From assembly GCA_016929525.1 (NCBI GenBank), contig JAFGIP010000021.1, forward strand, positions 1 to 59,339: a stretch of DNA of 59,339 nt. The letters are read 5' to 3'. The DNA is from Bacteroidales bacterium. Its GTDB lineage: Bacteria > Bacteroidota > Bacteroidia > Bacteroidales > UBA10428. Numbering within the stretch: position 1 is the stretch's first letter; each line of letters opens with the position of its first letter. This document shows positions 19,137-55,700 of this stretch, piece after piece. The notes under the pieces were generated by a model. The model saw only the letters and a list, made by a program, of their open reading frames with translations. It made no database searches and had not been told where the DNA came from. Both the position numbers and the translations under genes were made by a program.

Positions 19137-19137
19137 G

Positions 19138-20412: not shown

Positions 20413-21511
20413 GAGTAAGTATTTAATCATCGGTAAATTACCTCCCCCTTTTTATGGGACATCAGTCTGGTTTAGTACACTATATAATAACATTAAACTG
20501 AAGAATTACGGATTCTTTTTTTACAACATCAGTATCAATAGTTCAATAAAAACATTATCAAAGTTTTCAACTTCGAAAATATTTTTAGTTCTGAAAAAAT
20601 ATATTGGGTTTAAAAAACTTCTTAGTCAAAGATGCCCAAAAGTCGTATTAATACCATTAAGCCAATCATTATTAGGAATTTTACGCGATTCTTATTTTAT
20701 TCGAACTTCGGTTAAAAAAGGTTGCTTAGTTCTACTGATACTTCATGGAAGTAACCTTTTATCCTGGTATAAAAGACAAAATACAATTATAAGGAAATAT
20801 GTTAATTTATATTTAAGCAAAGCAGAAGGAGCTTTGGTACTGGGGAATAATCTGAAATATATTTTCGAACATTTTTTACCATCCGAAAAGATTTATGTTG
20901 TTCCTAATGGGCTAAATATAGAATTCCCTGTTGTTTCAAAGAATAAAAGTGTAATGCAACTCCTATACCTGGGGAATTTACAGCACACTAAAGGAATTAC
21001 GGATATTATTGAGGCACTGACATTGATTGATAATAGATTATATAATAAATTTAGACTAGATGTTGTTGGCAGTTGGCGTGAAAAGTCAACAAAGGAATTA
21101 TGTTTTAAGATGATTAGCAGGAATAATTTGCCGGTTAAATTTCTTGGTTCTCTATATCATGGTGATAAAAATAAAGTGTTGGCAGGAAGCGATGTATTAA
21201 TATTTACTCCAAGGGCTCCGGAGGGACATCCTTTGGTTATTATAGAGGCAATGGCTGCTGGGTTACCTGTTATTAGTACAGATCAGGGAGCCATAACTGA
21301 GTTGGTTATTAACGGGGTGAATGGTTTTATCGTGGAGAAGCAAAATCCCGAATCTATTGCATCTAAAATTAAATATTTTATTGGAAATGAGACAATAAGA
21401 AAGAAGATGGGTAAAGAAAGCAGAAGAATATATGAACAAGAATTCACTGAAGATATAATGGTTGACAAACTGATTGATGTATTTGATTCAGTTTTGGAAA
21501 GCAATGAATAA
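20405..21511 (+). CDS. GT4 family glycosyltransferase, last gene of the first polysaccharide operon
   Basis: This 368-residue GT-B enzyme has LIIGKLPPPFYGTSVWF at its start, LLYLGNLQHTKGITDIIEAL and FLGSLYHGDK in the donor lobe. It also has TPRAPEGHPLVIIEAMAAGLPVIST, which carries the E-x7-E motif. The ATG at 20405 overlaps the end of the ligase-like gene by eight bases. A longer in-frame start at 20369 would lie deep in that gene and is not needed. A 258-base gap follows, ending the packed operon. Confidence 0.87.
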   Translation: MNKSKYLIIGKLPPPFYGTSVWFSTLYNNIKLKNYGFFFYNISINSSIKTLSKFSTSKIFLVLKKYIGFKKLLSQRCPKVVLIPLSQSLLGILRDSYFIRTSVKKGCLVLLILHGSNLLSWYKRQNTIIRKYVNLYLSKAEGALVLGNNLKYIFEHFLPSEKIYVVPNGLNIEFPVVSKNKSVMQLLYLGNLQHTKGITDIIEALTLIDNRLYNKFRLDVVGSWREKSTKELCFKMISRNNLPVKFLGSLYHGDKNKVLAGSDVLIFTPRAPEGHPLVIIEAMAAGLPVISTDQGAITELVINGVNGFIVEKQNPESIASKIKYFIGNETIRKKMGKESRRIYEQEFTEDIMVDKLIDVFDSVLESNE

Positions 21512-21769: not shown

Positions 21770-21943
21770 ATGAAAAAAAAACAGAAAAAAAATAAATTAA
21801 AAGGCAAAATGTCCCGAAAAGAAGCGATAGGCAAAATGAGTCTTACAGCATTATCTGCGGCTACAATGATGCACTTATTAAACAAACCTGAAAAAGCACT
21901 GGCTCAGGGTGATTCGCCAGATACTCCGCCCGAATGGCCGTAG
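21770..21943 (+). CDS. Small peptide, candidate precursor of a modified exported peptide
   Basis: The gene encodes 57 residues from the ATG at 21770; a longer frame from 21683 has no family support. The N-terminus is very lysine-rich, followed by MSRKEAIGKMSLTALSAATM, a weak Tat-like or leader-like segment with a hydrophobic stretch. Then come LNKPEKALAQ, with an Ala-Leu-Ala signal-peptidase-like site, and the short tail GDSPDTPPEWP. The kinase gene with an N-terminal PqqD-like domain begins 16 bases downstream. PqqD-type domains bind leader peptides in RiPP pathways, so a precursor role is attractive. Seen: size, leader-plus-tail layout, adjacency. Inferred: modification and export. It could instead be a small exported protein. 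Confidence 0.6.
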   Translation: MKKKQKKNKLKGKMSRKEAIGKMSLTALSAATMMHLLNKPEKALAQGDSPDTPPEWP

Positions 21944-21959
21944 CTATGATTACCTGATT

Positions 21960-23108
21960 ATGGAGCAGATAGTTAAAAAGATTGATAATAAATATATTGT
22001 TTGGTTCAAACATTCTAATCGCTGGGTTAAGCTTGAAGAACCGGCATGGTTCATTAATAATTTATTGCAAAAGGGCCTTAATAATAAATTAACAACAAAA
22101 AAGTTTGCTGATCATTATAATCTTGAGATCAGACAGTGCTCAGAATTTGTTGAAGAGATTTGCAATAAAATAAAAGAAGCAGGTAAACCATGTAAGAATC
22201 ATAACGAAAATATAATAGCTGAAGATTATAAAGAAAATTTCAAATTCAGAAAATTCTCAGTGAGGAGATATTTAATCGGGGGGAAACAGTTTGAAATTAA
22301 GTACAGTACGCGATTATCTGAGTATTATATTCATCGTCCACTTGCTCACATGGAAGTTGAAGATTGTTCAAATGAAAAAGTTGCTGAAAAATATGAGATT
22401 ATTGATAACGCAAGCATAAAGGTTTTAAGAAATATTGGGGATGTTAGTAGTTCATGGGCATATAAAGATTTTATGTGGCTGAAAAAAAGACTGTATATAA
22501 ATATAACAAATAACATATACAATAAATCCATACACAATTGGCTGTCCTTTGTTCATGCTTCGGCCATAACAAATGGACAAAAGACTATTTTGCTTTCATC
22601 ACCAAGTGGATCAGGGAAAAGTACTATGGCTGCCCTTTTACAGATAAAAGGCTTTAAAGTAGTCTCTGACGATTTTGTTCCGATAGACGCTAAGCTTAAG
22701 CGGGCATATCCTTTCCCGGCTGCCATTTCTGTTAAAAAAGGAGCATTCTCAGTATTGAATTCATTTTATGAAATTTTAAACAATAAAAATTTCGATGAGA
22801 TTACAAAATTAACAGTTCGTTACATTCCGACTGTGGACTTATCAGTATCTGATTTGAATGCCAGACCTGTTAAAGAAATCATTTTTCTAAGGTATGACCC
22901 AAATGTTGAATGTAACTTTTTAAAGCTATCACACATTAAAGCATTGAAACTATTTCATAACCAGTCGTGGGTATCGCGTGAGACGGAACATGCAAGAAGT
23001 TTCATTAACTGGTTTGTTAAATTGCGATGTTTCAGTTTAACATATGGCGATTTAGAAAAAGGGATGGATAAAATTTCAGAACTTTTTGAAAATAGAAGAG
23101 AGAGTTAG
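21960..23108 (+). CDS. PqqD-like domain fused to HPr-kinase-like P-loop kinase, cassette copy 1
   Basis: This 382-residue protein is read from the ATG at 21960, matching the start of copy 2. Residues 1-85 (KKIDNKYIVWFKHSNRWVKL through FVEEICNKIKEAG) have the size and pattern of a PqqD-like peptide-binding domain. The C-terminal part is an HPr kinase/phosphorylase-like P-loop domain: Walker A PSGSGKST at 215-222 and the acidic pair D237-D238 in VVSDDFVPID. The HPrK tetramer signature is not evident, as in HprK-related kinases of exosortase and lasso-type loci. It probably binds a leader and phosphorylates a peptide or protein. It lies 16 bases after the peptide gene and 2 bases before the nucleotidyltransferase. 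Domain calls are good; substrate is unknown. Confidence 0.8.
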   Translation: MEQIVKKIDNKYIVWFKHSNRWVKLEEPAWFINNLLQKGLNNKLTTKKFADHYNLEIRQCSEFVEEICNKIKEAGKPCKNHNENIIAEDYKENFKFRKFSVRRYLIGGKQFEIKYSTRLSEYYIHRPLAHMEVEDCSNEKVAEKYEIIDNASIKVLRNIGDVSSSWAYKDFMWLKKRLYINITNNIYNKSIHNWLSFVHASAITNGQKTILLSSPSGSGKSTMAALLQIKGFKVVSDDFVPIDAKLKRAYPFPAAISVKKGAFSVLNSFYEILNNKNFDEITKLTVRYIPTVDLSVSDLNARPVKEIIFLRYDPNVECNFLKLSHIKALKLFHNQSWVSRETEHARSFINWFVKLRCFSLTYGDLEKGMDKISELFENRRES

Positions 23109-23110
23109 TG

Positions 23111-24220
23111 ATGAACCGGCGACAAACATATTATTTTATTGGCAATTTGCTTTCGTTTTCTGTTAGCGATGAACAAAAGAAAATGTTCATTAAGGCATTT
23201 AAATCTCCCGCTTTCAATTGGCCGGTATTTGTTGCTTTGGGGAGCAACCACCTGGTACTTCAGACAATTTATTGTAAACTATTTGATTATAAACTTACAG
23301 ATTATCTCCCGTCAGAGATAAAGTCGCATCTTAAGCGTATTTATGATCTCAATTTTGAAAGAAATACGGAAATTATTAGTCAGGTTGATTCTGTCAATCT
23401 GCTTTTAAATAAACATGGTATTGCTCCTTTGTATATGAAAGGAGCAGGTAATATCATCGATGGTTTGTATACCGATATCGGAGAAAGGATAATGCACGAT
23501 ATAGATATTTTAATCCAGGAAGAACAGTGGAACCCTGTTATCAGTGCTCTTTTACAGGATGGCTACTGTGCATTTTCAGAATCAATACCAGGAAAAACAA
23601 CTAAACACTATCCACCTTTATATAAGTCAGGGAATAAGATTACATTGGAAATTCACCGGGCCCCTGTTGATAATGAACATACGAGATTAATTAGTACTAA
23701 AGAGATTTGGGATAACAGAAAACAGATAAATGGTCATGGTGATTGTTATGTGATGAGCAATCACCATAAAATCATCCTTAATTTTATCCACTCACAGCTG
23801 ACACATCACGGGTATTCTTATGCAAGAGCTTATTTAAGAGATTTATACGATTTACAGTTGCTGTCATCGAGAGAAAATATTGAAGAGAATTTTAAAAGAT
23901 TAAAGCGTTATCGGAGTAGAGCAATTAGTTACGTGGGGTTGATGAATAAAGTTTTTCAGGGCAGGTCAACTGAAAAATTAAAATTGAATATATTAAATCA
24001 TATACACCTGTTTAGGTGCGAATTAAATCTTAAATTAAGAATTGCGGGAATGATAACTTTTCTTTTATCAGTTATGTTTCGTTCATATATATTGATCCCT
24101 TTTCGATCATTAAAGAATCAAGAATCAAGAAATTCTTTGCCTAAGAAATTGTTCGATAAAAACTGGTATATGAAACATTATAGATCATTAACTCGTATAT
24201 ATAGAATAAATACCTCCTAA
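23111..24220 (+). CDS. Nucleotidyltransferase-fold protein, cassette copy 1
   Basis: This 369-residue protein resembles the 'uncharacterised nucleotidyltransferase' family (PF14907 type). LLNKHGIAPLYMKGAGNIID at about residues 98-117 supplies the glycine loop. ERIMHDIDILI supplies the paired-Asp metal site (D-I-D), followed by HYPPLYKSGNKITLEIHRAP. The C-terminus is very basic (RSLTRIYRINTS). Family members accompany PqqD and HprK-like genes in exosortase and peptide-modification loci, but their reaction is largely unknown. The ATG at 23111 is two bases after the kinase stop; a GTG three bases earlier is less likely because copy 2 begins MNRLQTYYF. Confidence 0.78.
   Translation: MNRRQTYYFIGNLLSFSVSDEQKKMFIKAFKSPAFNWPVFVALGSNHLVLQTIYCKLFDYKLTDYLPSEIKSHLKRIYDLNFERNTEIISQVDSVNLLLNKHGIAPLYMKGAGNIIDGLYTDIGERIMHDIDILIQEEQWNPVISALLQDGYCAFSESIPGKTTKHYPPLYKSGNKITLEIHRAPVDNEHTRLISTKEIWDNRKQINGHGDCYVMSNHHKIILNFIHSQLTHHGYSYARAYLRDLYDLQLLSSRENIEENFKRLKRYRSRAISYVGLMNKVFQGRSTEKLKLNILNHIHLFRCELNLKLRIAGMITFLLSVMFRSYILIPFRSLKNQESRNSLPKKLFDKNWYMKHYRSLTRIYRINTS
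23414..23461 (+). repeat. 48-base exact match to the second nucleotidyltransferase gene (copy 1)
   Basis: These 48 bases, coding HGIAPLYMKGAGNIID, are identical to 29429-29476 in the paralogous gene, including all synonymous positions. After a single mismatch the match continues for eight more bases. The surrounding DNA of the two genes is much more diverged. The segment covers the glycine loop of the nucleotidyltransferase fold. Confidence 0.9.
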
Positions 24221-24245
24221 GATTTTGAAATTTAATAAAATAGAT

Positions 24246-27200
24246 ATGAAGAGGATGAGATTTATACAAGTAGCTTTTTTAATAACATGGATTCTGTTAT
24301 TGTCAAATATAGCAACAAGAGCTGCAGTAAGAACAGCCTCTGTATCTGGTAACTGGAGCAGTACAACTACCTGGGGTGGTTCATCCGCTCCTGGTTCAGG
24401 AGATACTGTTATTATCAATAGTGGGATAACAATAATAGTAGATGTCGCTGCTGAATGTACAACCATTGATTTCGTTCCTAATACATCACATAGTACTTTA
24501 AGAATATATGGTACCAATTCATTGATAGTAGAGGGACTTATAAATATGCCTGCGCCGAATAGAAATGCAAGAAATGTCAATGTGCAGGTGGATGCAGGAA
24601 CGTTAGTGTGTGATTCCATCACGATGAATGCAACTACCGGCGGACGAAGAAATCACCTTGAAATTACTACTGGGACAGCCACAATAAATAGTTATTTTAC
24701 CATGGGGGGCACATCATGCTATATAACTTTTACTGATACAGGAACGCTAAATATAGGTGGAACGGTTAGCGGTATACCTACTATGACAACAGTGGCCGGA
24801 AGTACGATCAATTATACCAGCTCTGGTAACCAAACTATTATTCCAGGCGATTATAAAGGTACTCTGGGATGTTCTGGAGCAGGAACAAAAACATTGATAG
24901 CTGCCACTACTGTAAACGAAACATTAAACTTAACGGAAGGACAATTAGAAAGCGATACTTATCTGACAATTGGTGATGGAGTTACAATTAACAGGTCGGA
25001 AGGATCAATAAGCGGTTCGCCTACCTTTTCAGGAACGGTGGACGTGGTATATTCAGGTGGATATCTGATAACAAGTGGTTCTGAATTGCCTACAACAGAA
25101 ACTACACTGAATGATTTGACTTTGAATACCGGAGGTGTTGTACAGGGGGGTACTCAAATTTCTCCTACAATACTTCTTTATGATGAATTTGATGACTTAA
25201 ATGAATGGACAGGTGATGTAGGCTCACAAGGGAACCTTTATAAAGCTAATTCCAGTTCAAATGCCGGTGGAACTTCAAAAGAATGCCGATATAACGGGGG
25301 AGATGACGGAGGCACAGATTATACAGCGGCTATTTATCAAATAGTCAGCACTACAGAATTTTCAGAAGTGAATATTAGCTGGAAACAATTCATAGATAAT
25401 AATGATCCTGTTACTTATCCTTTTTCATTGAAAGTACAGAGTGGGTCTTCTAATACAGGACCTTGGACAGATATATATTCGATTACACCCGGTAGTTCTG
25501 CTGATATCGGACCAGAAACGAAATCCGTTACCGGTTGGACAACCGATGTTGGAGGTGATTTCTATATCAGATTATTAGCAACAGGATATACTTATGGAGT
25601 TAACTATTGGTATGTAGATGATCTTCTAATAGAAGGACAGGGTTATGTAGATTCCTCAACAGTAACGGTAAATGGGAATTTAGATTTAACAAATGGTGAC
25701 TATTCAATAGCAACAAATAAGCTGGCAATAAACGGTACATTATCCGGGGGTAATGATATTATTGGTGGTTCGACAAGCGAATTAATCATTGGAGGTAGCG
25801 GTGCGAACTTTTCAGTTCCTGCAATTATGGATGGACTAATGGATTTTACCGTTACCAGACCAAATGGAGCTACATTTACTACAGCCCAGACTTTAACAGG
25901 AGATTTGACTGTTGCAAGCGGATCTTCTCTTACTACAGGCGCGTATAGTCATTCTGTTGGAGGAAACTTGATTAATGATGGGACATTAACAACAACGGGA
26001 AGTACAATAACTTTCGATGGAACTTCAGAACAAAAGATAAAAGTCTCAAATGCTACAACATTTAACAACGTAATCATCGATAATGCAAGCGGGGTTTCAC
26101 TGGATAACGATGCATTAGCTACTGTTTCAGGAACTCTGACTATTAATAGTGGGTGTATATTAGAAATTGATACAGCAAGTAATTTAACTATTACCGGTAC
26201 ATTAACAAATAATGCGGGTACTTCGGGTCTGGTTATTCGTTCAGATACTACAAGTTCTGGCTCATTGATCCATAACACTGCCGGCGTGAATGCCACTGTA
26301 GAAAGATACATGTTAGGTAACCGGTGGCATATTGTTTCTCCGCCATTGTCCGGGCAAGACATTAATGATTTTTTGACAGACGCAGATAATAATATTCCAA
26401 CCAGCGGGGCCAATTATGGGATGATGGAATATTCCGAGTCGGTAGATGAATGGTTATATTTTACAGCTGCTACTGCTGGTAATTTACAAGTTGGTAGTGG
26501 TTATTTATTGAGGAATACAATGGATACTACGGTATGGATGTATGGGGCATTGAATACATCACAAGTCGATGTTAGTGTTACCAGAGATGCTTATGGATGG
26601 AATGCTATCGGAAATCCTTTCCCGAGTTCTATTGGGGTCAGAGAAGATGCTTATACAGATGATGATTTTCTTACTTATAATGCTGCTGAATTTGATCCGA
26701 GTTTTGCAGTACTTTATATATGGGACGAACCTGAAGTACGTGCACCAAGCACAAGTTATTGGAAGGTGGTTGGTAATTCCGGATATTCTTCATCAAAAAC
26801 AGAACTGGATCAGGCATATCTTCAACCGGGACAAGGTTTCCTTATTAGGGCGAAAGAAGGTGGAGGTACAATGAGCTTTACAACAGATATGCGTGTACAT
26901 GAAAATACCGGAACATATTTTAAATCGACCAGAGAACCATGGCCGGGATTGAATCTGATTGTTAAAAATGAAACAGCATCAACTTCAACAGCTGTTACCT
27001 TTCATGCAAATATGACCAATGGTTTGGATGTTACATATGATGCAGGACTGTTTGGCGGAGATTCCAGATTTAGACTGTATTCACGTCTCGTGGAAGATAA
27101 TGGGATTAATTTTATGCTGCAGTGCTTACCAGATAACGGTGATTCAACTATTATTCCGATAGGTTTAGATTATAAAGAAGGCGGATTGGTAAATTTTTCG

Positions 27201-27644
27201 GCTGAAACAGTATTACTCCCTGAAGGGTTCAATGTTATACTCGAAGACAGACTCCTTAATATTTTTACAAAATTAAATGAACTATCTTCAGAATACTCGG
27301 TAGTTGTTGATGCAAACACATCAGGGATAGGAAGGTTTTATTTGCATACTTATCAGGCTCCCATGGCTCCTGAAGAACCGGAGGAGCCGGTAAATTTAAA
27401 CAGTAACAACATTTCACCACTGCTAATTTATTCGTATGGTGGGGACATTATTATTAAAGGTGAAATAACTGGCATTGCTAATGCCAAACTTTATAATCTT
27501 GCAGGGAGTTTGGTTAGAACATATGAATTAATGCCATCCGATTTGAATGTATTACCTGCTGATGATGTTCAACAGGGGATTTATATTGTAAAGATATCGG
27601 GTAAAACTGTGAACGAAAATAAGAAAATCTTATTAAATCAATAA
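24246..27644 (+). CDS. Large exported beta-repeat protein with G8-like N-terminus and T9SS-type C-terminus, copy 1
   Basis: About 1132 residues are read from the ATG at 24246, which gives a clean signal peptide (MKRMRF, a hydrophobic core, then cleavage near ATRA). A TTG seven codons earlier is also in frame. The mature N-terminus (SGNWSSTTTWGG through GDTVIINSGITI) resembles a G8 domain. A jelly-roll-like segment near residues 310-465 contains FYIRLLATGYTYG and WYVDDL. Next come short beta repeats rich in Thr, Ser and Gly, a conserved block with ERYMLGNRWHIVSPPLSGQ and AIGNPFPSSIG, and a PEEPEEP linker. The last 75 residues (KLYNLAGSLVRTYEL, GIYIVKI) look like a T9SS sorting domain, predicting secretion and surface anchoring. 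It is the third gene of cassette copy 1. Confidence 0.8.
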   Translation: MKRMRFIQVAFLITWILLLSNIATRAAVRTASVSGNWSSTTTWGGSSAPGSGDTVIINSGITIIVDVAAECTTIDFVPNTSHSTLRIYGTNSLIVEGLINMPAPNRNARNVNVQVDAGTLVCDSITMNATTGGRRNHLEITTGTATINSYFTMGGTSCYITFTDTGTLNIGGTVSGIPTMTTVAGSTINYTSSGNQTIIPGDYKGTLGCSGAGTKTLIAATTVNETLNLTEGQLESDTYLTIGDGVTINRSEGSISGSPTFSGTVDVVYSGGYLITSGSELPTTETTLNDLTLNTGGVVQGGTQISPTILLYDEFDDLNEWTGDVGSQGNLYKANSSSNAGGTSKECRYNGGDDGGTDYTAAIYQIVSTTEFSEVNISWKQFIDNNDPVTYPFSLKVQSGSSNTGPWTDIYSITPGSSADIGPETKSVTGWTTDVGGDFYIRLLATGYTYGVNYWYVDDLLIEGQGYVDSSTVTVNGNLDLTNGDYSIATNKLAINGTLSGGNDIIGGSTSELIIGGSGANFSVPAIMDGLMDFTVTRPNGATFTTAQTLTGDLTVASGSSLTTGAYSHSVGGNLINDGTLTTTGSTITFDGTSEQKIKVSNATTFNNVIIDNASGVSLDNDALATVSGTLTINSGCILEIDTASNLTITGTLTNNAGTSGLVIRSDTTSSGSLIHNTAGVNATVERYMLGNRWHIVSPPLSGQDINDFLTDADNNIPTSGANYGMMEYSESVDEWLYFTAATAGNLQVGSGYLLRNTMDTTVWMYGALNTSQVDVSVTRDAYGWNAIGNPFPSSIGVREDAYTDDDFLTYNAAEFDPSFAVLYIWDEPEVRAPSTSYWKVVGNSGYSSSKTELDQAYLQPGQGFLIRAKEGGGTMSFTTDMRVHENTGTYFKSTREPWPGLNLIVKNETASTSTAVTFHANMTNGLDVTYDAGLFGGDSRFRLYSRLVEDNGINFMLQCLPDNGDSTIIPIGLDYKEGGLVNFSAETVLLPEGFNVILEDRLLNIFTKLNELSSEYSVVVDANTSGIGRFYLHTYQAPMAPEEPEEPVNLNSNNISPLLIYSYGGDIIIKGEITGIANAKLYNLAGSLVRTYELMPSDLNVLPADDVQQGIYIVKISGKTVNENKKILLNQ

Positions 27645-27678
27645 CCAAAATAAAACCGGGTTTAGTTTAAAATACTGT

Positions 27679-27714
27679 AAAAAGCTTTGTGATTATTAGT
27701 TGCAAGGCTTTTTT
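27679..27714 (+). terminator. Rho-independent terminator of cassette copy 1
   Basis: An 11-bp stem pairs AAAAAGCTTTG (27679-27689) with CAAGGCTTTTT (27703-27713), allowing one G-T pair, around a 13-base loop, and runs into a T-rich tail. It lies 35 bases after the surface-protein stop and separates the two cassettes. Confidence 0.75.
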
Positions 27715-27816
27715 GTTACTATTATTGATAATATAAATTACCTTCCCTTCTTATAATACGGGTTTATAAACGGGTAACTATTAATTAAAGTGAAATATTT
27801 CTGCACAAATAAAGGG

Positions 27817-27848
27817 TTTGGAGGATCACTTCAATTTCGTAAATTTTG
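27817..27848 (+). promoter_or_regulatory. Candidate promoter of cassette copy 2
   Basis: TTTG at 27817-27820 is followed by 19 bases and then TAAATTTTG at 27840-27848. This resembles the Bacteroidota -33 TTTG and -7 TAnnTTTG boxes with one extra base in the -7 element. It sits just after the copy 1 terminator and about 130 bases before the kinase ATG. A GATCACTT motif lies inside the spacer (27824-27831). Confidence 0.42.
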
Positions 27849-27978
27849 CAGTTTTATCAGACAGGATATTGATAGTAATCACTTTATATATTTCTACTGA
27901 TTATAGTTTAAAAGGATAAAATAGTGATAACTTGAAAGAAAGTTTATTGATAACAATCGCATATATAACATTTTGATT

Positions 27979-29109
27979 ATGCGGCAAGTATCAAAAAAGA
28001 TTGATAACAGTTATGTAGTGTGGTTTGAAAGATCAAACCGCTGGATTCAGTTTGAAGAACCGGCATGGTATATTAATAAATTGTATCAGAAGGGGGATAG
28101 TATTGAAATTATAGAGAATAAATTCGCTGAACGATACAGCTTTGAAAAAGATGAGTGTTCGGGTATTGTTAAGGAGATCTGGAATAATATAGACGAAGCC
28201 TTTAATACGAATATTGTATTAGAAGATGATTTAAATGCTGCAGATTTTATAAATAATTCAAATATTGAAAAATTTTCTTTAAAAAGGTATTTAGTTAACG
28301 GTAAAATTATTGAAATTGAATACAGTTCACGGTTAGCTGAGTATTACATTCATCCGCCACTCGCTTATTTGGAAATCCCAAAATTTTCAGGTGTAGCAGA
28401 CAGTAGCTTTCATATAATTGATCAGGGAGAATATAAATTGATATTTCAAAAAGATAATGAAAATACAGGATGGGTTTATAACGATTTTATGAAACTGAAA
28501 AAGCGACTTTTCATAAATATGGCAAACACAATGTATAATAAAACAACGAATAACTGGTTATCCTTTGTTCATGCATCAACGCTTTCAAATGGTGAAAAAG
28601 CTGTACTTCTTTCTTCTCCAAGCGGAAAGGGTAAAAGTACTTTGGCAGCACTTATGCAGACAAGGGGCTTGAAAGTGGTCAGTGATGATTTTGTACCGAT
28701 TGATGTAAAATTAAAACGTGCATTTCCATTTCCTGCTGCAATTTCAATTAAACCTGGGGCATTTTCAATAATAAAACCATACTATAAAAATATAAGTGGT
28801 TTCTATTTTAAAGAGACTGCAGAGGGGATAGTACATTTTATTCCTCCTTCTAAGGATGAAGAATCAGATATGCGCCCCCTGCCTGTAAAAGAAATAATTT
28901 TTATTAATTATGAGCCGGGAGTTGAATGCCGTTTTAATAAACTCTCAATAACTGAATCTTTGAAATTGTTCCATAACCAGGCATGGGTATCGCATGAACC
29001 GGAACATGCGCGAAGATTTATTAACTGGTTTGTTAATTTGCAGTTTTTCAGTTTAACATACGGCAATGTGGGAAAAGGGATGAAAAAAATTTCAGAACTT
29101 TTAAACTAA
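27979..29109 (+). CDS. PqqD-like domain fused to HPr-kinase-like P-loop kinase, cassette copy 2
   Basis: This 376-residue paralogue of the 21960 product is collinear with it throughout. The PqqD-like N-terminus keeps SKKIDNSYVVWFERSNRW and FEEPAWYINKL. The kinase has Walker A PSGKGKST at residues 214-221 and the acidic pair D236-D237 in VVSDDFVPID. The C-terminal NQAWVSHEPEHARRFINWFV and SLTYGNVGKGM are also shared. The ATG at 27979 is used because it aligns with copy 1; a TTG two codons earlier exists. No precursor-like peptide gene precedes it, so it may act on the copy 1 peptide, on a distant one, or on another substrate. Confidence 0.8.
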   Translation: MRQVSKKIDNSYVVWFERSNRWIQFEEPAWYINKLYQKGDSIEIIENKFAERYSFEKDECSGIVKEIWNNIDEAFNTNIVLEDDLNAADFINNSNIEKFSLKRYLVNGKIIEIEYSSRLAEYYIHPPLAYLEIPKFSGVADSSFHIIDQGEYKLIFQKDNENTGWVYNDFMKLKKRLFINMANTMYNKTTNNWLSFVHASTLSNGEKAVLLSSPSGKGKSTLAALMQTRGLKVVSDDFVPIDVKLKRAFPFPAAISIKPGAFSIIKPYYKNISGFYFKETAEGIVHFIPPSKDEESDMRPLPVKEIIFINYEPGVECRFNKLSITESLKLFHNQAWVSHEPEHARRFINWFVNLQFFSLTYGNVGKGMKKISELLN

Positions 29110-29125
29110 GACGGATAGATAAGAA

Positions 29126-30238
29126 ATGAATCGTTTGCAGACATACTATTTTATTGGTAATTTACTATCATCGTCTTTTAACGCAAAACACAAAGAATCA
29201 TTAATTCAGGAATTTAAGTCACCAGATTTCAACTGGTCGTTATTTATAGCATTGGGAAGTAACCATCTGGTTCTGCAAATTATATATTGCAAACTTCTGG
29301 GAAATCAACTTACTGAATATCTCCCAGCGGAGGTGAATTCACATCTTAGAGAGATTTATGATCTGAATCTTGACAGGAATATGGAGATTATTAAACAGAT
29401 TAAAGCTATAAATTTATTACTGAACAGTCATGGTATTGCTCCTTTGTATATGAAAGGAGCAGGTAATATCATCGATAGTTTGTATTCTGATTTGCCAGAG
29501 AGGTTGATGCATGATATTGATATTTTGGTTCCCGGGGAACATTTGGAACCTGTCATTACAGCTCTATTGAATGACGGGTATCGTTCATTTTCGGAAATTA
29601 AACCTGAGAAATTGAAGACAGCTAAACACTATCCGCCGCTTTCTAAAACCGGAAACAAGGTAACACTGGAAGTTCATCGTTTCCCTGTAGGACATCAATA
29701 TACCAAAATTATTAACACTGATGAGATTTGGAAAGAAAGAAAACAAATTGACGACTACGGTACATGTTATGTTATGAGCGACCATCATAAGATCATCCAT
29801 AATTTTGTTCACTCACAACTTATGCACCACGGACATTCATATGCACGCGTTCATTTGCGCGATTTATATGATCTGCTAATGCTTACGTATCGGGAGGATA
29901 TCGGATTGTGTCTAAAGGGTTTAAAAGGTCAACGCAATAAAGCTTTCAGCTATCTGGGCCTGATGCAAAAGGTGTTTCAGAAAGAATCAACTGAAAGAAC
30001 CAAACGGAATTTATTTGTACGATTATATTATTTTCGGTATGAAATCAATTTACGCTCACGAATTTTCAGTTTAATAAATTTCTTAATTGCTATTATGTTT
30101 CGTTCTTACATAATAATTCCGATCCGGTCATTGAAAGATAAAGAACGAAGAAATTCTTTACCTAAAAAGTTATTTGAAAAGAACTGGTATAAAAGACATT
30201 ACAGATCGTTAACACGTATAAGTAAAAATAAAAACTAG
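29126..30238 (+). CDS. Nucleotidyltransferase-fold protein, cassette copy 2
   Basis: This 370-residue paralogue of the 23111 product shares the start MNRLQTYYFIGNLL, the glycine loop in HGIAPLYMKGAGNIID, the metal site RLMHDIDILV, AKHYPPL, VTLEVHR, SDHHKIIHNFVHSQL and the basic tail FEKNWYKRHYRSLTRI. It starts 16 bases after the kinase. Conservation of both catalytic-looking motifs in both copies argues that both enzymes are active. The reaction is unknown. Confidence 0.78.
   Translation: MNRLQTYYFIGNLLSSSFNAKHKESLIQEFKSPDFNWSLFIALGSNHLVLQIIYCKLLGNQLTEYLPAEVNSHLREIYDLNLDRNMEIIKQIKAINLLLNSHGIAPLYMKGAGNIIDSLYSDLPERLMHDIDILVPGEHLEPVITALLNDGYRSFSEIKPEKLKTAKHYPPLSKTGNKVTLEVHRFPVGHQYTKIINTDEIWKERKQIDDYGTCYVMSDHHKIIHNFVHSQLMHHGHSYARVHLRDLYDLLMLTYREDIGLCLKGLKGQRNKAFSYLGLMQKVFQKESTERTKRNLFVRLYYFRYEINLRSRIFSLINFLIAIMFRSYIIIPIRSLKDKERRNSLPKKLFEKNWYKRHYRSLTRISKNKN
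29429..29476 (+). repeat. 48-base exact match to the first nucleotidyltransferase gene (copy 2)
   Basis: Identical to 23414-23461; see that entry. The identity covers the coding sequence of HGIAPLYMKGAGNIID with no synonymous change. Confidence 0.9.
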
Positions 30239-30511
30239 CCGGAGTATACTTAAATGAAAGTAAAACAAATTACACAACATTATTAACTGATTTTTCGTGA
30301 ATATTATTTTTGGTTGATATAAGCCAAATATTCAATACCGTTAATCAATTAAATGAAACTAATACTACTATTTATACGTACGTAGTACACAGAACAGGTG
30401 AAAGATGATCCTGATCACTTAAACAAATTGATATATATCATGTTTTAAATGAAGATGATCACTTGTTTTGGAATAAAAAGGAAGAGAGGATTTGGGTTAA
30501 ATAATTAGGAG
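30239..30511 (+). promoter_or_regulatory. Intergenic region with paired GATCACTT motifs and a palindrome
   Basis: In copy 2 the surface-protein gene is separated from the nucleotidyltransferase by 273 bases, whereas in copy 1 the gap is 25. It contains GATCACTT at 30413-30420 and 30457-30464, each in a larger AAGATGATC context. Between them lies the 12-base palindrome TGATATATATCA (30429-30440). This suggests separate control of the second surface protein. No gene is visible in the gap. Confidence 0.4.
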
Positions 30512-33500
30512 ATGAGATTGAAGAAGATACGATTATTTGGAATAATAGTATTTAGTATACTGTTTTTAAGTTCAGAGTTGTATGCTGACACCAGAACGGC
30601 ATCAAACAATGGTAACTGGAACAATACAGCTACCTGGGGGGGGGAAGCACAACCGACTGCAGATGATGATGTAATCATAAATAGCGGGATTTCAGTTACA
30701 GTTAATGTTGCGAGTGCAGAATGCGCAACACTCACTTTTGCAAGTAACAGCAGTACATCAGTTCTTACAATAAATGGTACCAATTCATTAACGGTGAGCG
30801 GACTTATTTATATGCCACAGCCTACTAGTTCTAACAGGCATTGTAATGTTTGGGTAAATAGCGGTACACTTACCTGCGGGTCTGTACAAATGACCACTAC
30901 CTCTACCACTCGGAGAAATGTTTTCTACATCACAACTGGGACAATGACGATTACAGGAAGCGTAACAGTAGCCGGTACAGGCTGCAGATTTGTTTTTCAG
31001 GATGCAGGTGTACTGAACATCGGAGGAACTACCAGCGGTACTCCCCAGCTTACGAACTATTCAGGATGTGAGGTTAACTATACCGGCGATGTAAATCAGG
31101 ATATTTTTGAAGTAGATTATTATAACCTTGGTTTTTCAGGAACAGGTACAAAGACTTTAAATGATAATGTAGATGTTGATGAATCATTAACCCTGGAAGG
31201 GGGGGTATTAAACAATTCCAGTGGTAATTTAACCATGGCAGGCGGAACAACAATTTACCGTTATCAGGAAGGATCAGTGGTAACTTTCCTTGATTTTGAC
31301 GGTACTGTCGATATTGTCTATACCGGAGCATCAGCAGTAACAACAGGATATGAAATTCCGTTAGAAGATGATGTTGTGAACGACCTGACAGCGAATGCCA
31401 GCGGAGTCACGCAGGGACAACTTACGCTTACTTCGGCTTATCTGCTTACTGAGAATTTCAGCAATATGGCTGGGACATGGACTGGTGACTATGGCGGACA
31501 GATATCGAATAGTGGTCATGAAAATGATGATAATGGCTGGACTGAAGCCCCCAATACATTTATGGAGCACCATGAGGTTGATTCCTTTTCTTTCTGGATA
31601 TGGACATTTTGGTATCAAACCGGAGTTGTAGAAGGCAGATACCTGGGAGGTGATAATTCATCTACTTATTATGAAGCTTCCGTCATACAGAGTATAGATA
31701 ACTTTGGTCTGACGAATGTGGATATCAGTTGGGACCAGACTATTGATGATAAAAACGGATCGACATATCCTTATACACTTAAAGTTCAGATTGGGCCTAC
31801 TTCGGGTGGTCCCTGGACCGATCTGTATTCTGTTTCACCTACATCAGATATAAGTGGTACACAGATTTTAGAAGATTATGAACTAGACGACGGGAAAGAC
31901 TTCTATGTCAGGTTATATGCAACCGGTTATACTTACGGTTTAAATGATTGGTATATTGATAACCTTACTATTTACGGAGAGGCTGACCCTGATCCTGTTC
32001 CAACCACTGTAACCATAAATGGGGATCTGGACTTGTCAGGCGGAACTTATGACATTGCAGGGAATTCATTGGAGCTTAACGGAACTATAACAGCATCAGA
32101 TGATGATATTATCGGAAGCTCCACAAGCGATCTTACCATCGGAGGAACAGGAACTAATCTATCAATTCCGAGGATTTCCGGAGGCTTAAATGATTTGAAA
32201 ATTTCACGACCGAACGGGGCAACATTATCTGAAGGATATACAATCTCGGGAGATATTATTGTTGAAACCGGCTCTTCACTTGATGCAGACAGCTATACAC
32301 ATACAGTCGGAGGAAATATTATTAACAGCGGAACGTTTACCACATCAGGAGATATATCGGTTGGTACCGATCTGTACAGTAGCGGTTCGTTTAATGGTTC
32401 GGGAGCAACGCTTTCTGTACCGGGTGACCTGACCAATACAGGAACGTTTGATGCAACAAGTACTACAATAACGGTTGGAGGTAATTTTACAAACGATGAT
32501 ACATTTGACGCAACCAGTGGCTCAATGACATTTGATGGCTCTTCAACTCAGTCAATCCTCGGATCGGGTACATCTACTACACTAGGTGATGTAATCTTTG
32601 ATAATACCCCGGCGGTTGTTGATTCATTGGAAGGATTATTGACCGTCTCGGGTTCTTTAACTGTTAACGCCACTTCTGCTTTTGAAATATCGTCGGCCAG
32701 TGATGTTACCGTTGTTGGCACTTTCACATATAATTCCGCTACGGATCTGATATTACGTTCCGATACATTGAGTACAGCATCTCTTATTCACAGTACAGCA
32801 GGGATTAGTGGTGAAGTTGAAAGATATATGATAGGAGACCGTTGGCATGTTGTTTCCCAGGCTGTATCCGGACAAAGTATTAATAGTTTTATTACGGATG
32901 TCGATAACAATATTCCGACAAGCGGGGCTAATTACGGTATGATGGAATACTCGGAATCAGATGACGAATGGCAGTTCTTTACAGCAGCAACACCCGGAAA
33001 TCTGACTCCTGGAGAAGGATATCTCCTCAGAAACACAGCGAATGATGTTGTGACCACATATGGAACATTAAATGTTGCTAAGGTGGACATTTCTGTTTCT
33101 CAAGATATGTATGGCTGGGATGCACTTGGCAATCCTTTCCCAAGTTCCATAGGAGTTAGGGAAGATGCAACTACCAGCGATGACTTTCTTACTTATAATG
33201 CTGCTCAGTTCGATCCGAGTTTTGCAGTACTTTATGTTTGGGACGAACCTGCAGTCAGAGAACCGTATCATACATACTGGGTAGTTGTCGGTAACTCGGG
33301 ATTTTCATCGTCTAAAACGGAACTTGATCAGGCATACCTGCAACCGGGCCAGGGATTCCTTGTCAAAGCAAAAGATGGCGGAGGAACAATGACGTTTACA
33401 ACAGATATGAGATCACATGGAGACTCTGATACACATTTTAAAACATCAAGAGAGCCATGGCCGGGTATAATTCTTAAAGTCAGTAACGAAACCAAATCAG

Positions 33501-34174
33501 CATCAACTTCAATCACGTATCATGAAAATATGACGTTAGGCCTTGATATTACCTATGATGCAGGACTGTTTGGAGGAAATCCTAATTTCAGACTTTATTC
33601 ACATCTTGTTGAAGATAACGGAGTGAATTTTATGTTACAGTGCTTACCCGATGATAATGACACTATCATAATTCCTATAGGGTTTGATTATAAAGATGGC
33701 GGAATGGTTACTTTTTCATCAGAATCAATTTTACTTCCCGATAGTTTCAGGGTTATAATTGAGGACAGACTTCTTGGTGTTTTTACAAATCTTGAAGAAC
33801 CATCTTCAGCATATTCAACTACCGTAGAAGAAAATTTTTCGGGAATCGGAAGGTTTTATTTACATACTTATCTGGATTCAAAGGAAACTGAACAACCAGA
33901 GGAGCCTGAAGAACCGGAAGAGCCAGTTGCTGTGAACGATATTAATACTTCATCGATATATATCTATTCCTATGGGAGTGAAATTTTTATCAGGGGAGAA
34001 ATAAACGGTAATACACATGTAAAACTATATGATCTCGCCGGAAGCCTGATCAGAACATACGAACTGACACAAACCGACATTAATATCCTGCCTGCAACAG
34101 GTATAAGAAAAGGAATTTATCTGGTGAAAGTTGAAGGTAAAGGAATAAGCAAAACCGGGAAAATAATACTTTAA
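30512..34174 (+). CDS. Large exported beta-repeat protein with G8-like N-terminus and T9SS-type C-terminus, copy 2
   Basis: This 1220-residue paralogue of the 24246 product starts with a signal peptide (MRLKKIRLFGIIVFSILFLS, cleavage near LYA-DT). The ATG directly follows GGAG at 30508-30511; a TTG two codons on is also possible. The order is G8-like segment (NNGNWNNTATWGG), jelly-roll-like segment with FYVRLYATGYTYG, beta repeats, conserved block (VERYMIGDRWHVVSQ, ALGNPFPSSIG), PEEPEEPEEP linker and T9SS-like end (LYDLAGSLIRTYEL, GIYLVKV). It is longer than copy 1 mainly through extra repeat units (about 32330-32560) and an aromatic-rich insertion near 31570-31620. Surface exposure via T9SS is inferred. 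Confidence 0.8.
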   Translation: MRLKKIRLFGIIVFSILFLSSELYADTRTASNNGNWNNTATWGGEAQPTADDDVIINSGISVTVNVASAECATLTFASNSSTSVLTINGTNSLTVSGLIYMPQPTSSNRHCNVWVNSGTLTCGSVQMTTTSTTRRNVFYITTGTMTITGSVTVAGTGCRFVFQDAGVLNIGGTTSGTPQLTNYSGCEVNYTGDVNQDIFEVDYYNLGFSGTGTKTLNDNVDVDESLTLEGGVLNNSSGNLTMAGGTTIYRYQEGSVVTFLDFDGTVDIVYTGASAVTTGYEIPLEDDVVNDLTANASGVTQGQLTLTSAYLLTENFSNMAGTWTGDYGGQISNSGHENDDNGWTEAPNTFMEHHEVDSFSFWIWTFWYQTGVVEGRYLGGDNSSTYYEASVIQSIDNFGLTNVDISWDQTIDDKNGSTYPYTLKVQIGPTSGGPWTDLYSVSPTSDISGTQILEDYELDDGKDFYVRLYATGYTYGLNDWYIDNLTIYGEADPDPVPTTVTINGDLDLSGGTYDIAGNSLELNGTITASDDDIIGSSTSDLTIGGTGTNLSIPRISGGLNDLKISRPNGATLSEGYTISGDIIVETGSSLDADSYTHTVGGNIINSGTFTTSGDISVGTDLYSSGSFNGSGATLSVPGDLTNTGTFDATSTTITVGGNFTNDDTFDATSGSMTFDGSSTQSILGSGTSTTLGDVIFDNTPAVVDSLEGLLTVSGSLTVNATSAFEISSASDVTVVGTFTYNSATDLILRSDTLSTASLIHSTAGISGEVERYMIGDRWHVVSQAVSGQSINSFITDVDNNIPTSGANYGMMEYSESDDEWQFFTAATPGNLTPGEGYLLRNTANDVVTTYGTLNVAKVDISVSQDMYGWDALGNPFPSSIGVREDATTSDDFLTYNAAQFDPSFAVLYVWDEPAVREPYHTYWVVVGNSGFSSSKTELDQAYLQPGQGFLVKAKDGGGTMTFTTDMRSHGDSDTHFKTSREPWPGIILKVSNETKSASTSITYHENMTLGLDITYDAGLFGGNPNFRLYSHLVEDNGVNFMLQCLPDDNDTIIIPIGFDYKDGGMVTFSSESILLPDSFRVIIEDRLLGVFTNLEEPSSAYSTTVEENFSGIGRFYLHTYLDSKETEQPEEPEEPEEPVAVNDINTSSIYIYSYGSEIFIRGEINGNTHVKLYDLAGSLIRTYELTQTDINILPATGIRKGIYLVKVEGKGISKTGKIIL

Positions 34175-34201: not shown

Positions 34202-34237
34202 CAAATACCCCGGTTGCTACCGGGGTATTTGCTTTTT
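34202..34237 (+). terminator. Strong rho-independent terminator after cassette copy 2
   Basis: A perfect 12-bp stem pairs CAAATACCCCGG (34202-34213) with CCGGGGTATTTG (34220-34231) around the loop TTGCTA, followed by CTTTTT. It lies 27 bases after the surface-protein stop and ends the cassette pair. Confidence 0.92.
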
Positions 34238-34324: not shown

Positions 34325-36463
34325 ATGCATCAGCTAACCCAAAAACTTAAATCGGGCAAGATGGAAATTGTAGAAGTGCCTATCCCTCAATTGTTAAAAG
34401 GCCAGGTGCTTGTGAAAAACTATTACTCGGTAATTAGTTCCGGTACCGAGGCGAAAAGGGTTTCCGATGCTCGTAAAGGTTATATCGCCAAAGCACGAAG
34501 CAGGCAGAAGGAAGTAAAGCAAGTAATAGACCTGGTTCGTTCACAGGGAATAAAAAGTGCTTACGGAATTGTGATGAATAAGCTTGAGGCATTGTCTTCA
34601 CTGGGTTATAGTTGTTCCGGTGAAATAATAGCAGTAGCTGATGATGTGAATGAATTTAGCGTTGGAGACAGAGTTGCATGTGGCGGGAATACTGCTGTTC
34701 ATGCTGATTTTGTTGCCGTTCCAAAAAACCTTTGTGTAAAAGTTGATAAAAATATATCCTTACAGGAAGCAGCATTTACAACTATAGCAACTATTGCTCT
34801 GCAGGGGATCAGGCAGGCTGAATTGCAAGTTGGAAGCAATTGTGTTGTAATCGGACTCGGGCTTATTGGAATTATCACAATGAAATTACTGGAAGCTTCA
34901 GGGATAAGGTCTTTCGGTGTTGATATAAATGAGGATACAATTCAGCGTGCTTTTTCCGATTTTAATTTTAATGTGGCGGAAAGAAATAAAAGCGGACTTA
35001 CAGATGAAATAAAAAACTGGTCCGGAATTGATGGTGCCGATGCAATTATCATAACAGCAGCTACCAACAATAATGATCCGGTGAATTTTGCAGGAGAACT
35101 GTGCAGGAAAAAAGGGAAGGTAGTTATTGTTGGAGCAGTGCCCACCGGGTTTGAAAGGAACAATTATTACAAAAAAGAACTCGATCTGCGGATGTCCTGC
35201 TCTTATGGTCCAGGCAGGTATGACCCCGTTTATGAAGAAAAAGGAATTGATTATCCTGCCGGATATGTGCGTTGGACAGAAAAAAGGAATATGCAAACAG
35301 TAGCAGATCTTTTATCGGAAAGAAAACTGAATTTTAAAGATTTAGTTTCACACAATTTTAAACTGGAAGAAGCACCCAAAGCATACGATCTGATTATTGC
35401 CAAAAAAGAACCAGTCTGGGGGGTCACTATAGAATATGAAAAAGAAGTAAGCAGAGAGAAGACTGTTATACTTGATACAAGTTTTCGTCCGAAAACCAAA
35501 CTGAATGTCGGGCTTATCGGAGCAGGTTCATTTGCACAAAATATAATCCTTCCGGTATTGAAAAATAAAGTAAACCTGGTTGGTCTGGCAACGCTGACAG
35601 GTAACAGTGCACTTTACAATGGAAGAAAATATAAATTTTCTTATATAACCACCTCACCGGAAGAGTTATTAAATGATACAGGCATCGATACGGTTTTTAT
35701 TCTAAACAGGCATAACTTCCATGCTGAACATACAATTTCTGCCTTAAAAGCCGGGAAAAACATTTTTGTTGAAAAACCACTTGCCATTACAAGCGATGAA
35801 CTTGATGAAATTGAATTGGTATATAAAAGTATTGAAACTCATAAACCTTTGCTTCTGACAGGATTTAACAGACGTTTTGCTCCGGCGGTGATAGAATGTC
35901 TGAAAAAGTTAAATCCCTCTTTGCCAAAAGCCATCAATATCCGTATTAATGCGGGAAACCTGCCCAAAGAGCACTGGGTAAATGATAAAGAGGCTGGCGG
36001 GGGAAGAATTATAGGAGAAGCATGCCATTTTATTGATCTGGCTTGTTATCTTGCAGGATCAGAAGTAATTTCGGTAAACGCAAATGCTTTACAGGATAGT
36101 TTACACCTTGACAATACATTAAATATTTCACTGAAATTCAGGAATGGGAGCATTGCAGGTATATCGTATTTCTCTAATGGGAACAGGAGAATCCCAAAAG
36201 AAAGTATTGAAGTATTCTGCGGTGAAACAGTTACACTTATTAACGATTTTTCATCGTATGAAATTATCACTTCACGATCAAGGAAAAAATACAAACTTAA
36301 ACATTCCGATAAAGGTCATAATGAAGAAATAAATCAATTCATCGAGGCGATAAAAAAAGGGGAACAATCTCCGGTTCCTTTTAACGAGCTAATACATTCT
36401 ATGAGGATAACATTGTTGGTTTTACAGTCGCTTAAAGAAGAGAGAGTTATTAGAATTAGTTAA
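34325..36463 (+). CDS. Bi-domain oxidoreductase: alcohol-dehydrogenase-like domain plus Gfo/Idh/MocA domain
   Basis: This 712-residue protein begins with an MDR-type fold (residues 1 to about 375): the VISSGTEAKRV segment, GYSCSGEIIAVADDV, VGDRVACGG and the Rossmann loop CVVIGLGLIGIITMKLL. The GHE zinc motif of classical alcohol dehydrogenases is absent. From about residue 390 a Gfo/Idh/MocA domain follows, with LNVGLIGAGSFAQNIILPVL, the EKPL motif and GGGRIIGEACHFIDLACYL. Such two-domain proteins are common in capsule and exopolysaccharide loci beside toroid or heparinase-like genes, and probably act on a sugar or sugar nucleotide. The stop overlaps the next start by one base. Confidence 0.88.
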   Translation: MHQLTQKLKSGKMEIVEVPIPQLLKGQVLVKNYYSVISSGTEAKRVSDARKGYIAKARSRQKEVKQVIDLVRSQGIKSAYGIVMNKLEALSSLGYSCSGEIIAVADDVNEFSVGDRVACGGNTAVHADFVAVPKNLCVKVDKNISLQEAAFTTIATIALQGIRQAELQVGSNCVVIGLGLIGIITMKLLEASGIRSFGVDINEDTIQRAFSDFNFNVAERNKSGLTDEIKNWSGIDGADAIIITAATNNNDPVNFAGELCRKKGKVVIVGAVPTGFERNNYYKKELDLRMSCSYGPGRYDPVYEEKGIDYPAGYVRWTEKRNMQTVADLLSERKLNFKDLVSHNFKLEEAPKAYDLIIAKKEPVWGVTIEYEKEVSREKTVILDTSFRPKTKLNVGLIGAGSFAQNIILPVLKNKVNLVGLATLTGNSALYNGRKYKFSYITTSPEELLNDTGIDTVFILNRHNFHAEHTISALKAGKNIFVEKPLAITSDELDEIELVYKSIETHKPLLLTGFNRRFAPAVIECLKKLNPSLPKAINIRINAGNLPKEHWVNDKEAGGGRIIGEACHFIDLACYLAGSEVISVNANALQDSLHLDNTLNISLKFRNGSIAGISYFSNGNRRIPKESIEVFCGETVTLINDFSSYEIITSRSRKKYKLKHSDKGHNEEINQFIEAIKKGEQSPVPFNELIHSMRITLLVLQSLKEERVIRIS

Positions 36464-37620: not shown

Positions 37621-37650
37621 TATAATAAAATAATGGTGAATTTCAAAACT

Positions 37651-37690
37651 GATTTTGGCAATATATATCACCAAAATTCGGTTTCATTTT
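37651..37690 (+). terminator. Possible weak terminator after the toroid gene
   Basis: GATTTTGG (37651-37658) can pair with CCAAAATT (37671-37678) over a 12-base loop, followed by a moderately T-rich stretch. The stem is AT-rich and the tail interrupted, so function is uncertain. Confidence 0.35.
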
Positions 37691-37740
37691 CATTGAATAC
37701 CAGCATTGTAATTGGTAACTTTAATATGATGATAACAATA

Positions 37741-37765
37741 AATTAAGTATGTTGTTAACTTAATT
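37741..37765 (+). promoter_or_regulatory. Inverted repeat upstream of the DUF354 gene
   Basis: AATTAAGT (37741-37748) is an inverted copy of ACTTAATT (37758-37765) with nine bases between, 70 bases before the DUF354 start. There is no T-tail, so a protein-binding site is more likely than a terminator, but AT-rich sequence makes chance repeats common. Confidence 0.25.
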
Positions 37766-37835
37766 AATTGTGATCTGATAAAGTAATATTTGTGTTGAAA
37801 AGAACTAAACCTGGTTATAACCAAAAATCTTGTTA

Positions 37836-39002: not shown

Positions 39003-39114
39003 TATGCTATCCTGAATCTATTATTATTTCTTGATAAATTGCAATCTGTGTTATAAATGCAGTACATTAGGTGATATAGTACTAAACAGACAGTTCATTT
39101 GAACAATTAGAGGT

Positions 39115-54537: not shown

Positions 54538-54565
54538 TAAACTGAAATCAAGAAAACATACAGAT

Positions 54566-55681: not shown

Positions 55682-55700
55682 ATCTGAAAATAAGTTTGTA

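Follow-up and report, generated by a model that had tools for sequence, protein, structure and literature searches.

We analysed a stretch of DNA from a Bacteroidales bacterium (GenBank assembly GCA_016929525.1, contig JAFGIP010000021.1), here called the window, which spans 59,339 nucleotides and is one entire contig of an assembly of 122 contigs and 4.06 Mb. It carries two collinear sets of genes, each for a kinase with a PqqD-like N-terminal domain, a PF14907 transferase and a giant surface protein of the type IX secretion system (T9SS), and a gene for a peptide of 57 residues precedes the first set. Our results suggest that peptide, kinase, transferase and adhesin-like surface protein keep company as one system in some Bacteroidota, and that they represent a so far undescribed route to a modified, probably exported peptide that would cooperate with surface proteins or anchor them. 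The cassette is probably a system that tailors a small peptide in the service of RemA-like surface proteins of the T9SS.

Co-occurrence and gene neighbourhood

We surveyed 454 genomes, made up of 395 from the phylum and 60 relatives with G000 in both sets, for the kinase, the peptide and the module that precedes the C-terminal tail of the surface protein. The same seven of the 454 genomes, G000, G006, G024, G088, G147, G285 and G371, had high scores for all three; they belong to four genera and stand for few independent events. The kinase was detected at E ≤ 1e-50 with profile A1 in G000, G088, G147, G285 and G371, and with a single-protein query in G006 and G024. Below this threshold were two fragments in G029 (2.3e-19) and a match in G313 (1.5e-12), as well as weak partial matches in 13 of the 60 relatives (E 2.5e-6 to 6.8e-4), which we set aside. 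The peptide was found at E < 1e-10 in the seven carriers, every other match being 6.5e-6 or weaker, and the module exceeded 200 bits in all seven, the best score outside them being 131 bits in G038. Some module at E ≤ 1e-20 was present in 45 of the 395 phylum genomes and 19 of the 60 relatives. Thus, the tie to T9SS surface proteins drawn by an earlier reading of the window, made without database searches (the sequence-only reading), is real, and the check on co-occurrence that it proposed came out favourably at the level of genomes.

We then tallied by hand, from the listing, the surroundings of 34 kinase loci, with the window counted once. The tally excludes the split kinase of G029 (L005, L019 and L022), the partial match of G313 (L028) and L054, a duplicate of L021; within it, L043/L044 and L045/L053 are pairs from two assemblies. 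Most of these loci had been retrieved with the kinase alone, and their frames were scanned with a profile of three peptides (from the window, G006 and G024), among which 24 columns were invariant. A peptide gene lay in the stretch at 20 of the 34 loci (22 genes) and a degenerate one at another; the weakest accepted match had an E value of 4e-7, and the degenerate peptide of L044 one of 0.0068. The transferase gene directly followed the kinase gene on the 3′ side in 25 loci, and four more were cut by a contig end. Among the loci with kinase, transferase and peptide are L046 and L047, from the culturable Maribellus maritimus and Sunxiuqinia elliptica. A module protein was encoded in 12 loci, in nine of them directly upstream of a peptide gene on the same strand, and in none of the other 22.

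In G147 and G371, the single enzyme pair has neither peptide nor module gene within 13 kb. Each of the 12 peptide genes found in these two genomes follows a module/T9SS gene in the same orientation; 11 do so directly and one is the second of a pair, so that six of the seven module proteins of G147 and five of the six of G371 are paired with a peptide.

Within the window, the cassettes are flanked by a series of glycosyltransferase genes on one side and by an oxidoreductase gene on the other (Table 1). Gene order in copy 1 is peptide, kinase, transferase and surface protein, with intergenic gaps of 2 to about 25 nt; in copy 2 the kinase and transferase genes are followed by a gap of 273 nt and the surface-protein gene. 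Both collinear sets claimed by the sequence-only reading were thus recovered, at 21960–34174 on the + strand with open frames. Its coordinates started at the peptide gene, yet its text gave the peptide no weight; the peptide belongs to copy 1 only, as the peptide profile had a single match in the window and no peptide gene was recognisable for copy 2. The two kinases are sisters in the kinase tree (100/98), from which L052 was left out for its run of N, and the two transferases are sisters in theirs (98/99), as expected of an old tandem duplication. The same genome yielded no further match to the window kinase beyond the two copies. Its one other peptide match is weak (E 0.008), and at E ≤ 1e-8 the module was matched in the two cassettes alone. 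Each set had also been said to end in a terminator: a hairpin does follow each, weak after copy 1 and strong after copy 2, in a scan that returned 13 sites against 6.8 expected.

Table 1. Features of the two cassettes in the window
Feature	Position	Strand	Basis
Peptide, 57 residues, precursor-like	21770..21943	+	Open frame 16 nt 5′ of kinase copy 1; homologues adjoin kinases elsewhere
Kinase copy 1, PqqD-like + HprK-like	21960..23108	+	TIGR04352 E 8e-20, 71 bits against cut-off 200; family alignment; AlphaFold; fold search
PF14907 transferase copy 1	23111..24220	+	PF14907 E 7.5e-33; family alignment; AlphaFold; structure search
Giant surface protein copy 1	about 24246..27644	+	TIGR04183 26.1 bits, cut-off 23; module 26442-27416
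Terminator-like hairpin after copy 1, weak	27679..27713	+	Hairpin scan
Kinase copy 2, PqqD-like/HprK-like	27979..29109	+	TIGR04352; 54% identity to copy 1
PF14907 transferase copy 2	29126..30238	+	PF14907 E 5.3e-31; 64% identity to copy 1
Giant surface protein copy 2, architecture as copy 1	30512..34174	+	TIGR04183 30.6 bits; 51% identity to copy 1
Terminator-like hairpin after copy 2, strong	34202..34231	+	Hairpin scan

Enzymes, peptides and surface proteins

The kinase consists of an N-terminal PqqD-like domain (about residues 1–75) fused to an HprK-like kinase domain. Its AlphaFold model has a predicted local distance difference test score (pLDDT) of 90.1, with the N-terminal domain predicted as EEE-HHH, and a structure search assigned the C-terminal domain to the PEPCK/HprK fold (best PEPCK match E 3e-6; HprK weaker, E 0.005 to 0.02). 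Nine residues are invariant across 32 aligned kinases (alignment A5, without the cut kinases L050, L053 and L058), including H199, G219, K220, D237, D238 and K259. The protein therefore has the fold, the P-loop and the H-K-D-D residues of HprK/PEPCK-fold kinases, in keeping with the HPr-kinase-like kinase named in the sequence-only reading. All 32 aligned kinases matched TIGR04352 (HprK_rel_A) at E ≤ 0.01 (best 5.8e-24), but the window kinases, at 71.1 and 71.5 bits against a cut-off of 200, fall outside that equivalog. The PqqD label appears to hold for the family rather than for the window proteins by themselves: 13 of 30 family N-terminal domains matched PF05402 (PqqD) at E ≤ 1 (best 1.6e-4), and the family profile of this domain matched the lasso protein TfuB1 at E 0.0067, ranked below an unrelated-looking surface antigen at E 0.0015. 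In G029 (contig C55, L022:9260-10089), a kinase homologue is split over two frames, with no transferase or peptide match nearby, and looks decayed.

Both transferases scored well above the PF14907 (NTP_transf_5) gathering score of 31.2 bits (114.6 and 108.5 bits), in line with the nucleotidyltransferase fold proposed for them. The model has a pLDDT of 89.5, its best structure matches were JHP933, TM1012 and ANT(2''), none below E 0.001, and 13 residues are invariant across 25 transferases, including K110, G111, D130, D132, E180 and H182. A protein search of genome contigs with the transferase alone returned no matches, whereas the kinase alignment did find loci. The motifs described as catalytic-looking are thus intact in both families, and both enzymes look competent, judging from invariant catalytic-type residues, confident models and matching folds.

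The window peptide comprises a leader resembling a signal of the twin-arginine translocation (Tat) pathway (SRKEAIGKMSLTALSAATMMHLLNKPEKALA) and a short tail (QGDSPDTPPEWP). We saw 34 genes of the family, 22 aligned and 12 from G147 and G371. The 22 aligned peptides have in common a leader of the SR(K/R)xAIxK..G type followed by a hydrophobic stretch, and most have an (S/T)R(K/R)-x-A leader, the motif of Tat substrates being (S/T)RR. TatC is encoded in all seven carrier genomes; since 11 of 14 control genomes encode it as well, its presence permits the Tat reading and no more. Pfam and NCBIfam scans of the 22 peptides gave scattered weak matches alone, some to Tat-associated models. The tails, Ser/Pro- or Gly-rich in the family as a whole, are either short or long with much Gly, His or Asn among the aligned members; every one of these contains Ser or Thr in its tail, which carries little weight where the tail is long, and 19 of the 22 have an aromatic residue within the last six positions. 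Between lineages the tails vary widely, and some have Cys, His or Gly/Asn runs. In G147 and G371 they are near-constant (SPExPGxGF type) behind differing surface proteins. Codon differences in five in-register pairs (L080/L085 was dropped as out of register) summed to 46 synonymous and 16 non-synonymous, and were mostly synonymous in two diverged pairs (19:3 and 16:5); the most diverged pair had dN 0.044 and dS 1.17. These two pairs are in keeping with constraint on the peptide. A ribosomal precursor with a conserved leader lies beside candidate modifying enzymes, which is the layout of a ribosomally synthesized and post-translationally modified peptide (RiPP).

L035 and L037 have two peptide genes each. 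The first is divergent from the kinase gene and encodes a long Gly/His/Asn-rich tail; the second lies behind a module/T9SS gene and encodes a tail with Pro and Cys. Eight weak matches to the peptide profile were noted elsewhere. Seven were inspected (the G043 match was outside this set) and rejected as family members, since they are the signal-like N termini of frames that are larger or rich in Tyr and Ser; one weak match precedes what by eye is a Rieske-like sequence. That such matches fall on N-terminal signals is in line with a Tat-like leader. Frames at L079 (G000, contig C51, near 15033-15113) and L102 (G012, contig C88, near 35971) combine a similar leader, of the RREA(I/L) type, with Tyr/Ser-rich repeats behind it; close to each is a frame whose start, judged by eye, is CxxxCxxC-like and radical-SAM-like. 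They are possibly a separate ribosomal peptide family with the same type of leader.

By TIGR04183, the C terminus of each surface protein is a type A T9SS tail (26.1 and 30.6 bits; NCBIfam cut-off 23), so that the T9SS-like end given in the sequence-only reading passes this cut-off in both copies but misses that of the Pfam model (18.6 and 22.3 bits against 27). Their G8-like start proved a weak resemblance, at 15.8 and 15.3 bits under a Pfam cut-off of 22.9. The tail is preceded by a module of about 300 residues, whose profile matched, among solved structures, RemZ (E 3.5e-24) and RemA (E 1.5e-22); it is homologous to the corresponding module of these proteins. The gliding adhesin RemA and its homologue RemZ are both described as type A T9SS substrates in PMC10994853 and PMC12618676.

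Proposed route and competing explanations

PqqD-like domains bind peptide leaders. In the route that we consider probable, the PqqD-like domain of the kinase would bind the Tat-like leader of the 57-residue peptide, and the HprK-like domain would phosphorylate a Ser or Thr of the tail, as its fold and invariant H-K-D-D residues suggest by analogy with lasso-peptide kinases. The PF14907 protein may then cap the phosphate with a nucleotidyl or sugar group, as PsmN of pseudomycoidin might lead one to expect. The modified peptide would be exported and cleaved after an A-x-A-like site, and the mature peptide would act with the T9SS protein bearing the RemA-like module, a partnership that has genomic support. 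The enzymes and surface protein of copy 2, arising from tandem duplication, would use the single peptide gene in common with copy 1. The precedent comes from lasso clusters, whose kinase, according to PMC9266682 and PMC8498205, has a conserved H-K-D-D motif and adds phosphate to the C-terminal Ser; for pseudomycoidin, PsmK phosphorylates and PsmN is needed for the addition of one to two hexoses to the phosphate, possibly via nucleotidylation.

Several observations weigh against this route. The clean separation of carriers from other genomes is partly built into the profiles, since that of the peptide has rows from five of the seven carriers (G000, G006, G024, G088 and G285, without G371) and that of the module from four (G000, G088, G147 and G285, without G006, G024 and G371); the surveys also scored the best few candidates per genome (four for the kinase profile, five for the module). 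PF05402 had no match in the window's own genome nor in the N-terminal domain of kinase 1, so the PqqD-like domain named in the sequence-only reading stands for the family and not for the window proteins alone. The Tat-likeness of the leader is a resemblance, and most aligned peptides have R-K rather than R-R. In three of the five codon comparisons (5:6, 1:2 and 5:0), the genes are too similar, or the differences too sparse, for constraint to be evident. G285 has nine module matches scoring over 200 bits but a single detected peptide, and no family peptide lies behind ten unpaired module genes (eight in G285, one each in G147 and G371). The transferase is missing from five loci that have room for it downstream (L030, L032, L045, L052 and L055). 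By a motif search and the profile run on stop-to-stop frames, 13 of the 34 loci had no peptide in the stretch, which is weak evidence of absence because many stretches are short; the source genomes of two of the 13 (L088 and L089) have six peptides each elsewhere. With 22 of the 34 loci also lacking a module protein, the kind of finding that the sequence-only reading had named as telling against it, an enzyme pair without peptide or T9SS gene nearby, is partly present locally.

The enzyme pair might instead make a free secreted peptide, such as a signal, an antimicrobial or a metal ligand, with the RemA-like protein as its receptor, its delivery partner or a mere operon neighbour. We regard this as unlikely. 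The precursor and leader are laid out as in ribosomal peptide natural products, and the wide differences in tails between lineages, including their Cys, His or Gly/Asn runs, would suit such a product. The tails in G147 and G371 do not behave like a diversifying product; their near-constancy behind differing surface proteins favours a structural or anchoring role. Moreover, a Pfam scan recognised no dedicated exporter or immunity gene among 28 neighbours, a set to which most loci did not contribute. The surface protein itself would be the substrate, and the peptide an accessory, if kinase and transferase modified that protein before export, which we consider very improbable. The window, where the enzyme genes lie directly 5′ of the surface-protein gene, would allow it; the leader-binding habit of PqqD-like domains speaks against it, as do G147 and G371, where the enzyme pair lies far from the surface-protein genes and it is the peptide genes that adjoin them. 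The sequence-only reading had the enzymes act on a peptide or on the surface protein: the small peptide is the most likely substrate, and nothing points to the surface protein in that role.

A role in the surrounding exopolysaccharide locus, with the cassette tailoring a sugar- or lipid-linked step and the T9SS link being coincidental, would account for the glycosyltransferases, the sub-threshold Wzy-like protein and the sugar transferase that flank the cassettes in the window, and for L032 and L055, which have neither peptide nor transferase in the stretch and adjoin sugar transferase and epimerase genes. Other loci have other surroundings, so that a polysaccharide setting cannot be called general: a class II tRNA synthetase gene adjoins six Prolixibacteraceae-type loci (L034, L035, L037, L039, L040 and L041), and TrkA/TrkH and Mur-ligase genes adjoin L090. 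We give the exopolysaccharide explanation the least credence of all.

Another explanation turns on sorting. In Porphyromonas, as far as the accessible text of PMC7468200 goes, a 2-N-seryl or 2-N-glycyl linking sugar is amide-bonded to the C terminus of the cargo, with PorU implicated as the sortase. The exported modified peptide might itself be the acceptor of the T9SS sortase, its free N terminus replacing the seryl amine of that sugar, so that the module protein would be joined to a phospho-glycan-bearing peptide as its anchor. We hold this to be improbable: the position of peptide genes immediately after genes for type A cargo in G147 and G371, and a module that precedes the sorted tail as in RemA and RemZ, are consistent with it, but some module proteins have no peptide, and the acceptor in Porphyromonas is lipopolysaccharide. 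We would place at the same low level the broader proposal of a new ribosomal peptide class whose export signal doubles as the leader. A kinase fused to its leader-binding domain and a transferase that caps the phosphate would make this peptide, and RemA-like T9SS proteins would use it as a covalent or tight surface anchor that replaces the linking sugar of lipopolysaccharide.

Relation to known systems and other genes of the window

Both types of enzyme are familiar, and there is a precedent for the two-step chemistry; the novelty would lie in joining them to this peptide family and to RemA-like T9SS proteins. As in pseudomycoidin-type lasso clusters, a kinase with the H-K-D-D residues of lasso kinases and a nucleotidyltransferase homologue go with a ribosomal peptide (PMC9266682 and PMC8498205, accessible parts). 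Unlike in those clusters, the leader-binding domain is fused to the kinase, the precursor is unrelated and there is a tie to T9SS proteins. No lasso cyclase or B2 protease was matched among the seven cassette proteins and the 28 neighbours scanned (eight flanking proteins and 20 from other loci), most loci being outside that scan.

On the T9SS side, the cassette resembles Flavobacterium johnsoniae RemA and RemZ in having a homologous module before a type A tail, and differs from them in its kinase and peptide partners, which the portions of PMC10994853 and PMC12618676 at hand do not mention for those proteins. Many genomes that lack this kinase and peptide encode related modules, with scores of 75–131 bits. 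A dedicated partner gene directly behind the cargo gene recalls type B T9SS substrates and their SprF-like shuttle gene (PMC12618676, in part); here the partner is a tiny peptide and the cargo tail is of type A.

Bufferins are RiPPs with a signal-peptide leader. Both they and DAG-RiPPs depend on MNIO enzymes, in contrast to the kinase, transferase and Tat-like signal seen here. DAG-RiPPs also have a signal-peptide-like leader on a short modified peptide, as the accessible text of PMC12636315 indicates; the modification is predicted in our case. The sequence-only reading had known of no described system of this composition, and in the open-licence literature (subscription papers mostly fell outside its scope) we likewise found none that combines the kinase and transferase with the peptide family and RemA-like T9SS proteins. 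The available parts of PMC7470986 and PMC10352776 name no such system, and a term search of PMC12710340 gave no match. The cassette connects two fields that are not linked in the papers searched, namely peptide tailoring by lasso-type kinases and nucleotidyltransferases and surface display by the T9SS, and genomes with many pairs of peptide and surface protein and one enzyme pair make that link directly testable. It could assign a function to the peptide family, to this branch of PF14907 and to the module before the C-terminal domain of RemA-like proteins.

The flanks of the cassettes (16936-21511 and 34325-40650) contain exopolysaccharide-type genes, as found by a Pfam scan of eight flanking proteins. 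These include three group 1 glycosyltransferases, a DUF354 protein, a bacterial sugar transferase, a Wzy-like protein just under the cut-off and a fused zinc-dehydrogenase/Gfo-Idh-MocA oxidoreductase. Farther along the window, at 53140-59159, genes for proteins of 465, 394 and 1152 residues are arranged as those of an outer-membrane factor, an adaptor and an RND pump might be, a guess made from their sizes only.

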